33,870 bases of DNA from Planctomycetota bacterium (GTDB lineage: Bacteria > Planctomycetota > Planctomycetia > Planctomycetales > Planctomycetaceae). The translations under genes were made by a program, and so were the position numbers. The notes under the pieces were generated by a model, which did not search any database, had not been told where the DNA came from, and saw only the letters and a program-made list of their open reading frames with translations. The stretch lies in assembly GCA_003670925.1 (NCBI GenBank), contig QWQG01000021.1, forward strand, positions 1 through 33,870, in the 5' to 3' direction. The stretch's first letter is position 1, and every line of letters begins with the position of its first letter. This document shows, piece after piece, positions 217-3,931 of this stretch.

Positions 217-249
217 AAAAAATCGGGAGCAAGACGAGCTTGCTCCCGA
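217..249 (-). terminator. Rho-independent terminator of the cysteine-rich gene pair
   Basis: There is a perfect 11-bp inverted repeat, TCGGGAGCAAG at 223-233 and its complement at 239-249, with a 5-base loop. On the minus strand the stem is followed directly by six T residues (217-222). It sits 43 bases past the stop codon of the minus-strand cysteine-rich gene at 293-547, so it is well placed to end that transcript. Confidence 0.85.
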
Positions 250-292
250 CATCGTTGAATGCCGAAACATGCACGAAATCATCTGGCTGTAG

Positions 293-547
293 TTACTTGA
301 CGCAGCTACTACCGCCCGCACAGCATGAACCTGCAGCACAACATCCAGCATCGCATGCACAGTCGCCGCCGACATCACAGGCACAGCCGAGTTCATTGCA
401 AACGCAATCTTGGCATTTGCAAGCGGTGCAGCAGTCGCAACATGCTGCCGCTGCACGACTCTGATTGGTTCCTTGCACATGCATTGCGGCATACGCCAAG
501 GGAGCAGCACACAGACAGACAGCAAAGACACTGATGGACTTTTTCAT
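293..547 (-). CDS. Secreted cysteine-rich small protein (84 aa)
   Basis: The product is 84 residues. It opens with a clear Sec signal peptide (MKKSISVFAVCLCAAPLAYA, cleavage likely after AYA). A short linker leads into a tail of about 50 residues holding 17 cysteines in CC, CxC and CxxC spacings, with Gly, Ala and Asp between them. I chose the ATG at 547 because it starts the signal peptide and has a GGAG ribosome site 9 bases upstream; the frame is open further upstream but that part is not protein-like. The composition resembles metallothionein-type or disulfide-rich proteins, but I recognise no named family. The gene is second in a tandem with the cysteine-rich gene at 615-1100, 67 bases away, and is followed by a strong terminator. 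Metal binding is an inference. Confidence 0.7.
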   Translation of the reverse strand: MKKSISVFAVCLCAAPLAYAAMHVQGTNQSRAAAACCDCCTACKCQDCVCNELGCACDVGGDCACDAGCCAAGSCCAGGSSCVK

Positions 548-614
548 TAAAGGAATCTCCACTGAAATTTCACGAAAAACAAGAGACACAGGAGTCAACT
601 GTTTCGGACAGTGG

Positions 615-1100
615 TTAATTCCTCCAGACACACAGGGTGGCCTGCCTCAGATTGTGAGCGATGGAATCATGGACATATTGCGTTCCTGATCGAACTGCGT
701 CGCAGGTTAGGGGTGCCGGCGGATTGACGCCCGGACTCAATTCCATGAACCCCTTGTTCCAATCCCTTTTTTGATCGTCGCGGTGGTTGTTAGCCGCGAC
801 GCCGTTGGTAGCCGGGTGTTCGTCACAGCAGCACGTTCCAAGAAAGAACGCACTAGGATTCACTGCAACTTCTGCGCAACTGCAAGAGAATCTAGAATCA
901 TTCTTGCGGTTGGATTGCTTGCAGCAACAACATCCCTGAGCGGATTCGGCTGTACAGCAACTAGTTTCGTCCTGCGATGCACAGCAAGAGAATGCGGCAC
1001 AGCAACATGAGTCACTGGGTAAAATGCTAGCAAACACGCAAACTGCAGCCAACAGTCCGCGCCTGATTTGACCAAGAATTGCAAGTCTTCTAGATTCCAT
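615..1100 (-). CDS. Secreted cysteine-rich protein (161 aa), first gene of the pair
   Basis: The product is 161 residues. The ATG at 1100 has an AAGGA ribosome site 7 bases upstream and starts a basic n-region (MESRRLAILGQIRR) followed by a hydrophobic stretch (GLLAAVCVFASIL) typical of a Sec signal peptide. The next 70 residues are packed with cysteine blocks: CCC, CC, CC, CCCC, CSC and CCC. The C-terminal third has only two further cysteines and looks ordinary. About 18 cysteines lie outside the hydrophobic segment. No family is recognised. It is probably co-transcribed with the gene at 293-547 from the promoter at 1146-1174. Runs of consecutive cysteines suggest soft-metal binding or dense cross-linking in the envelope; both are inferences. 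The poorly conserved-looking tail could indicate a decayed C-terminus. Confidence 0.6.
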   Translation of the reverse strand: MESRRLAILGQIRRGLLAAVCVFASILPSDSCCCAAFSCCASQDETSCCTAESAQGCCCCKQSNRKNDSRFSCSCAEVAVNPSAFFLGTCCCDEHPATNGVAANNHRDDQKRDWNKGFMELSPGVNPPAPLTCDAVRSGTQYVHDSIAHNLRQATLCVWRN

Positions 1101-1145
1101 CGAAACATCCTTTGCGACGCAACACGCTCGCCCAACGTCCCTTTC

Positions 1146-1174
1146 ATTATTTACGAGACGGCAAACCACGTCAA
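1146..1174 (-). promoter_or_regulatory. Sigma70-like promoter for the cysteine-rich gene pair
   Basis: On the minus strand there is a TTGACG -35 box (complement of 1169-1174), a 17-base spacer, and an AATAAT -10 box (complement of 1146-1151). Each hexamer matches five of six consensus positions with ideal spacing. The predicted start would lie near 1139, giving a leader of about 40 bases before the ATG at 1100. Confidence 0.6.
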
Positions 1175-3011: not shown

Positions 3012-3581
3012 TCAGGCCATTTCGCCACGCGTGCGAAGTTGCTGCTGCAACTGATCTGCCATATCAGTCAATTGACCTTCGTCGTATCCCGCGAATTCTT
3101 CCACCGTGGAGAGAGGGATGCCCAGCAGTTCTTGAAGTAGCGTAATGCGACCCACTTTTAGACCTCGTGCTGCGCCTCGCGCTTCCCCTCGCGCTTCCCC
3201 TCGCGCTTCCCCTCGCGCTTCCCCTACCTGAATCGCATACTGTAATCGCGCCTCTTCGTCGCGTTGGAATTTCAGCCGGGCGTTGTACAGCATCAGTTGT
3301 TCGGGTGTTTGGGAAATCATTTCTAAAACTCCGGCGGCTTCGGCAATTGCGTCATCTGGAAACAAGCGGCAAACTTCGGCTGACGTCAACTTGTCGGCAT
3401 TCTGCAAAAAATAAGCCCAACGCTCAGAGGGCAAGGCATGGTACACCTTCTCCGCCGTCACGCGAAGATGATTCAATTGTAAAAGATGAATTTGCAGATC
3501 GTTCGTCAGAATCAAGTCGGATGACGATTCACGCATGAGCTTAAACGCAAAATCCACCAGCGGACTGATGCCTATCGCCAT
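3012..3581 (-). CDS. Rpn/PD-(D/E)XK transposase-like protein lacking its nuclease core
   Basis: The product is 189 residues. It begins MAIGISPLVDFAFKLM, the normal opening of the Rpn-type 'PD-(D/E)XK nuclease family transposase' proteins common in planctomycetes. It then jumps directly to SSSDLILTNDLQIHLLQL, a segment that in full-length relatives follows about 150 residues of nuclease domain. From there it is standard: LRVTAEKVYHALPSERWAYF, FPDDAIAEAAGVLEMISQTPEQ, a GEARGEAR repeat, and the GRITLLQELLGIPLSTVEE C-terminal segment. The catalytic Asp/Glu-x-Lys region is therefore missing, probably by an in-frame internal deletion. Rpn proteins are recombination-promoting nucleases; this copy should be inactive. 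I chose the start at 3581 by the family N-terminus; the frame is open upstream but without family-like sequence. Confidence 0.75.
   Translation of the reverse strand: MAIGISPLVDFAFKLMRESSSDLILTNDLQIHLLQLNHLRVTAEKVYHALPSERWAYFLQNADKLTSAEVCRLFPDDAIAEAAGVLEMISQTPEQLMLYNARLKFQRDEEARLQYAIQVGEARGEARGEARGEARGAARGLKVGRITLLQELLGIPLSTVEEFAGYDEGQLTDMADQLQQQLRTRGEMA
3175..3222. repeat. Four perfect 12-bp tandem repeats encoding GEAR units
   Basis: The unit CCTCGCGCTTCC is repeated four times without a mismatch inside the Rpn-like gene. On the minus strand it encodes the GEARGEARGEAR run, with a degenerate GAAR unit beside it. Such arrays are known to vary in copy number by slippage, and because the unit is a multiple of three the frame is preserved. 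Confidence 0.9.
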
Positions 3582-3931
3582 GTTTCTGCCACCACGAATT
3601 TTGGTTCCACTCCTCGCCGGACCACCGGACGCAGTGTAGCAGTCGTAAGACGCAACGGAATCCACGTCGAGGTGATCGGTACTGTGGGGGCAGTCGAGGA
3701 TTTCGGGAGGCCGGGCTGGACGGAGTGAGTTCCGGAAATTCGACGGTCCCGGCACTTGCGTTGCTCCGTCCGTCTCCGGATTACACTGACCAATCAACAC
3801 AGATTGACAATGGCTGGCGACTACACGCTGCGTGGGGAGGCTGCTGAATTGCCTCACGGGTAGCAATTCTGTAAAAGCAATCGAGGAACCTGAACAACCG
3901 CCCACTCAGCTTACAAGGAATCGTGTTCCCG
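3582..3931. other. Intergenic region between divergent Rpn-like and MFS genes
   Basis: This must hold the upstream signals of both divergent genes. A TTGACA hexamer occurs at 3804-3809 on the plus strand, but no acceptable -10 box follows at 16-18 bases. AAGGA at 3915-3919 is the likely ribosome site of the MFS gene. Nothing else was recognised. Confidence 0.45.

Follow-up and report, generated by a model that had tools for sequence, protein, structure and literature searches.

In a 5.78-Mb planctomycete genome, two adjacent genes at the beginning of contig C7 encode small proteins packed with cysteines, and the question raised by this locus is what such a gene pair does. The stretch of DNA analyzed here (33,870 nucleotides, hereafter the window) carries both genes on the minus strand, with gene B first and gene A 67 nt downstream (Table 1). 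An earlier reading of the letters alone, the first-pass annotation, had described two neighboring genes for exported Cys-rich proteins, and this was borne out at the same positions, export being judged by eye: A (ATG at 547, stop at 293-295) holds 19 Cys in total, of which 17 follow the export segment, while B (ATG at 1100, stop at 615-617) also holds 19, with 18 past the export segment, including CCCC and CCC runs. The promoter and terminator said to delimit the unit were likewise found by scans, at counts not above those of shuffled sequences (2 vs 1.3 for promoter sites and 4 vs 3.5 for terminators), and most relatives of A also carry hairpin-like sequence 3' of the gene, as read by eye. 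No metal gene adjoins the B-A operon within the window.

Table 1. Positions of the operon's features in the window.
Feature	Positions	Strand	Basis or remark
Promoter-like site TTGACG-17-AATAAT	1146-1174	-	10/12 matches; consensus match only
SD of gene B (AGGA)	1108-1111	-	sequence
Gene B, Cys-rich leader ORF of 161 aa, export-like segment at its N-terminus	615-1100	-	conserved family
Cys cluster of B (CCC ... CCC)	825-1007	-	final CxC 69 residues from C-terminus
B tail RQATLCVWRN-stop, putative arrest motif	615-647	-	family Trp conservation; arrest inferred
Stem 5' arm (TGGAGGAATTAACCACTG) across B's final codons and stop	609-626	-	RNA pairing
Stem 3' arm (CAGTGGAGATTCCTTTA) holding SD of A (GGAG, 557-560)	548-564	-	RNA pairing
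Gene A, 84-aa predicted exported metallothionein-like protein, 17 Cys after export segment	293-547	-	homologues
Intrinsic terminator-like hairpin, 12 pairs, then T-run	222-250	-	scan

The surroundings had been read as a mobile or plastic region on the strength of flanking IS remnants, and of this reading only the remnants themselves stood. A weak HTH_Tnp_1 fragment, under the curated cutoff, lies at 3-83, and an IS110-type transposase match at 1707-2426 belongs to a copy spanning 1384-2426 that looks like a decaying element, truncated at its start and interrupted by an in-frame stop. The locus is common to three related genomes; the operon is accompanied in G014 and G012 by the same MFS, methyltransferase and amidotransferase genes, and lies there about 2.5 kb nearer the MFS gene than in the window, which makes the IS copies look younger than the operon rather than its carriers, and the possibility that the operon is mobile-element cargo was rejected. 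The interval that separates the operon from the conserved MFS gene also holds a gene for a PDDEXK_2-type nuclease/transposase (3012-3905).

A search of 149 related genomes gave relatives of A in 13, in addition to that of the window and mostly within the same genus, the weakest match (G017, E 0.003) being unsupported in a later profile search. With a profile, A was detected in 18/170 genomes of the family, and 4 more cases came from elsewhere in the class, outside the family. Conserved cysteine spacing, which the first-pass annotation had proposed looking for by profile searches, is present: 12 Cys are invariant across 13 aligned relatives at 37-73% identity. Together with dN/dS values of 0.148/1.13 and 0.033/0.65 in two pairs of A genes and 0.51/1.52 for B, the homologues and conserved cysteines rule out composition noise or spurious open reading frames for both genes. 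Neither protein had been recognized at first, and neither gave a meaningful match in Pfam, NCBIfam or PDB sequences; the Pfam metallothionein families, searched with 13 members of A at E up to 1, gave none at all. A is nevertheless small and Cys-rich with conserved CxC/CxxC spacing, as metallothionein-like proteins are. It resembles bacterial metallothioneins of the SmtA type in its size, its approximately 17 Cys and this spacing, and differs from them in its export-like look and in lacking a match to any metallothionein profile or PDB sequence. The best-supported reading of A is that it is likely an exported metallothionein-like metal binder.

The role of B is a separate matter. A first profile found relatives of B in 30/170 family genomes, and a larger one in 35/392 genomes of the phylum and in 106/397 genomes of the class, covering 55/185 genera. 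A narrow pattern search of genome contigs returned planctomycete MAGs only. G005 (contig CAMAXD010000022.1), one of the genomes compared, groups with Planctomycetaceae MAGs and was assigned to the same genus as the window. The association of the two genes, computed directly from the genomes, is consistent: in informative loci a relative of B lies directly upstream of A, and in a blind check this was so in 4/4 A relatives outside the family, where the B tails read LSVWLK, LCVWII, LCVWRK and FCVWVI.

The association of B with metal operons was computed in the same manner, and extends well beyond A. Besides A-type proteins, the genes found behind B across genomes encode exported Cys-rich proteins of other kinds, adaptors of the CusB/HlyD type that contain a heavy-metal binding domain, outer-membrane efflux proteins (OEP), proteins of the TRASH/YHS type (mostly under curated cutoffs) and lipoproteins of about 300 aa with a weak TRASH-like end, the recurring metal-efflux neighbors that the first-pass annotation had proposed looking for being represented by CusB and OEP genes. 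At locus L153 (G045:C13:5500-10500), one run of genes comprises the leader, a 64-aa exported Cys-rich protein and a DUF326 copper-storage-like protein; no other locus hints so clearly at copper as the metal. Only at a few loci (G222:C369; L198) does B have no evident metal gene beside it. Taken together, these comparisons point to a previously undescribed family that precedes metal-handling genes across the phylum.

Other loci add variety to this picture. The window's own genome carries a second, weak B-like ORF (L161, G000:C230:7000-11700) upstream of a lipoprotein of about 300 aa with a weak TRASH-like end; its CxC lies about 73 residues from the end and its tail, SVRRC, is degenerate. At eight loci (L151, L154, L097, L098, L153, L206, L210 and L217), the gene behind B encodes a second kind of exported Cys-rich protein, with the pattern CxCVxCxCPxC...CxC and no Pfam match for those scanned.

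The range of partners bears on the suggestion that A, and perhaps B, serve as structural proteins at the cell surface, linked by disulfides, an idea that the first-pass annotation had also entertained. Planctomycete walls are Cys-rich, and both export-like segments and an abundance of Cys would be expected of such proteins, but in other genomes the B leader family stands in front of CusB, OEP and TRASH/YHS metal proteins, and A is very small, patchy in its distribution (18/170 family genomes) and endowed with the CxC/CxxC spacing typical of metal clusters. This explanation is accordingly the less likely one, and we regard it as improbable. The companion suggestion, that both proteins are metallothionein-like effectors, retains its force for A but not for B, which belongs to a leader family and is likely a regulator.

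The sequence of B itself is informative in this regard. All members of the family carry a hydrophobic N-terminal segment, judged by eye to be export-like, and a CC/CxC cluster predicted to bind metal. The cluster ends in a final CxC, and a spacer of nearly constant length (68 residues) and the family tail [LF]CxWxx-stop follow. As computed across the family, Trp is third from the end in 45/47 members and Cys stands two residues before it in 38/47, the window's B ending in LRQATLCVWRN. The conserved Leu, Cys, Ala, Gln and Val of the tail are written with several synonymous codons, which argues for selection on the tail peptide. The distance from the last CxC to the C-terminus is 61-73 residues, with a median of 68, in 45/45 measurable members, whereas the first CC-type motif lies anywhere from 92 to 168 residues from the C-terminus. 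Among 38 loci fetched after the rules for tail, spacer and pairing had been fixed, the Trp was present in 32/38 and the CxC lay 59-75 residues from the end in 34/38; at least 3 of the 6 loci lacking the Trp belong to the subfamily that precedes lipoproteins of about 300 aa. A length of 60-70 residues is approximately the span of the ribosome tunnel plus the translocon.

The main rival to a regulatory role is that B is an ordinary exported Cys-rich metal binder beside its partner, the two being joined by plain translational coupling, with no sensing by the nascent chain. B is indeed Cys-rich and export-like, and an RNA stem at the junction of the genes, described below, would by itself provide coupling. 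Yet the linker of B evolves fast and has many indels, while its last 10 residues and the distance from CxC to the end are kept, and the partner gene changes completely between operons while the tail of B stays the same. The fixed CxC-to-stop distance counts against an ordinary protein because a free protein needs no such distance, and on balance we consider this rival unlikely.

The third element is that stem, formed in the computed RNA structure by the final codons and stop of B and the ribosome-binding site of A (fold z-score -3.89 in the window). Since the arms of the stem shift, column-wise covariation on a MAFFT alignment was unusable, and cognate and non-cognate duplex energies were compared instead. 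In 22 short-gap operons, from which close relatives had been taken out, cognate pairing had a mean of -20.3 kcal/mol vs -13.4 kcal/mol for mismatched partners (0/20,000 permutations), and for the 13 A-type operons alone 0/20,000 permutations reached the cognate pairing. Because high-GC genomes could inflate pairing energies, a comparison with dinucleotide shuffles was added, giving a mean z of -2.21, whereas a segment of B that served as control gave -0.04. Pairing of the SD by the tail amounted to 0.53, vs 0.16 in 19 ordinary tandem gene pairs (p = 0.003). The arms vary in sequence yet stay complementary, as in CCACTG/CAGTGG in the window, CCAGA/TCTGG in G005 and AATTAGCTC/GAGCTAATT in G059.

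The pairing was replicated in later short-gap loci with an assigned start (n = 16, mean z -1.58 vs -0.06 for the control, p = 0.002), this test and that of the tail being not fully independent because the loci are related by descent. Among the blind A operons it was present in 3/3 with a short gap (p = 0.033, 0.020 and 0.010) and absent in one with a long gap; tail pairing is generally lacking where the gap exceeds about 150 nt, and some A-type operons (G006 L037, G077 L102) show a weak stem or none. By SD accessibility alone these operons were not separable from shuffles, and a search for known RNA families returned one chance snoRNA match only. The pairing alone would equally fit plain translational coupling.

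It is the combination of features that makes a cis-acting regulator the most likely role for B, since it heads many metal operons, carries a conserved C-terminal motif at a near-fixed spacing from its cysteines and ends in a stem over the next ribosome-binding site. In the reading we prefer, to which a probability of roughly two in three is assigned, B is a cis-acting nascent-chain metal sensor and A an exported metallothionein-like effector. The two genes would constitute a metal-response operon in which sensing is performed by the nascent chain of B. Its N-terminus would target the chain to Sec and, because about 68 residues separate the end of the Cys cluster from the C-terminus, the last CxC would have about cleared the ribosome tunnel and the translocon when the ribosome arrives at the stop codon. 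Depending on metal at the exposed cysteines, the [LF]CxWxx-stop tail would then slow or arrest the ribosome near termination. With no paused ribosome, the RNA at the end of B would pair with the ribosome-binding site of A and keep A off; a ribosome paused on the tail would cover the 5' arm, freeing the site so that A is made, exported and able to chelate the metal, probably Cu(I) or another soft metal. That metal should turn A on, rather than off, we infer from the protective look of A, and copper is the likeliest metal given the CusB, DUF326 and TRASH partners at other loci.

The CCC and CCCC runs of B call to mind another kind of leader, namely the polycysteine ORFs of mycobacteria, in which attenuation works by the slowing of ribosomes at Cys codons. 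Were B such an attenuator, ribosomes would slow at its runs when cysteine is short, but the runs lie some 200-400 nt ahead of the stem (cluster at 825-1007, 5' arm at 609-626), so stalling there would not open it, and the downstream genes concern metal, not sulfur metabolism. Cysteine starvation as the signal is thus highly improbable.

If B is indeed a nascent-chain metal sensor, its significance would lie in the distance from what is known. Metal-sensing nascent chains have so far been shown in a few Proteobacteria only, with proline-based tails, and a family that lacks sequence similarity to them, present in roughly one in four genomes sampled from the class, would suggest more than one origin of such regulation. 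The family would be new in its tail, in its ruler and in its direct link to exported metallothionein-like proteins; the tail is a defined new candidate for an arrest motif, and the proposed roles of B and A offer a possible function for many unannotated Cys-rich planctomycete genes. A bolder proposal, which we put forward tentatively and at somewhat under even odds, is that B founds a phylum-wide class of termination-acting arrest peptides ([LF]CxWxx-stop) that read metal beyond the Sec translocon, with a ruler of about 68 residues setting the CxC just outside the membrane at the stop codon and the paused ribosome itself uncovering the next ribosome-binding site.

Three known systems invite comparison. 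CopL of Xanthomonas and Stenotrophomonas is, according to a summary of that work in PMC9973294, a small leader needed in cis for a downstream copper gene; B too is a small leader before a metal gene and is predicted to act in cis, and the CopL NCBIfam profile found no match among 27 B members at E up to 1. A search of B against NCBIfam gave nothing beyond chance at E up to 0.1. In CruR of Bordetella pertussis, CxxC and RAPP motifs at fixed spacing control copper-regulated genes (PMC9426467), and arrest has been demonstrated in vitro (PMC12992588). The likeness to CruR and DUF2946 consists of a leader ORF at the head of copper operons with a Cys motif fixed 45 residues from a C-terminal arrest motif, and the 162-nt gap of CruR is resembled by the long-gap B operons. 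On the other hand, CruR acts by Rho-dependent termination and its export signal is dispensable, and the DUF2946 profile (PF11162) gave no match among 27 B members at E up to 1, the tails of the B family also having no RAPP. Elsewhere, a weak match to the B family (L165, G260:C2:910500-915500), situated before a 526-aa ORF, has the tail LLRPPQS, an RPP-type ending that resembles those of CutF and CruR leaders, and Planctomycetota may hold both tail types.

The closest comparison is with CutF, of the cutFOG operon in Rhodobacter capsulatus, whose nascent chain has been reported to bind copper, to hold back its own export by means of a stalling-like motif at the C-terminus and to let a stem that masks the cutO SD be opened (PMC9973294). 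Like CutF, B is a small leader that stands first in a metal operon and has a Cys motif, predicted to bind metal, and a C-terminal tail that is conserved; CutF is exported, and the N-terminus of B looks export-like by eye. The short-gap B operons, including that of the window, share the stem-loop over the SD of the next gene. The CutF tail is proline-rich, whereas that of B is [LF]CxWxx-stop without PP; B has a large Cys cluster, a ruler of about 68 residues, a length often above 150 aa and no known profile, and instead of a multicopper oxidase the downstream gene here encodes a Cys-rich protein that looks exported. Because the survey for CutF proteins was limited to those under 150 aa with PP close to the C-terminus (PMC9973294), the window's B would escape it. 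In conclusion, B would appear to work like CutF, yet it is not filed as a member of the CutF family.
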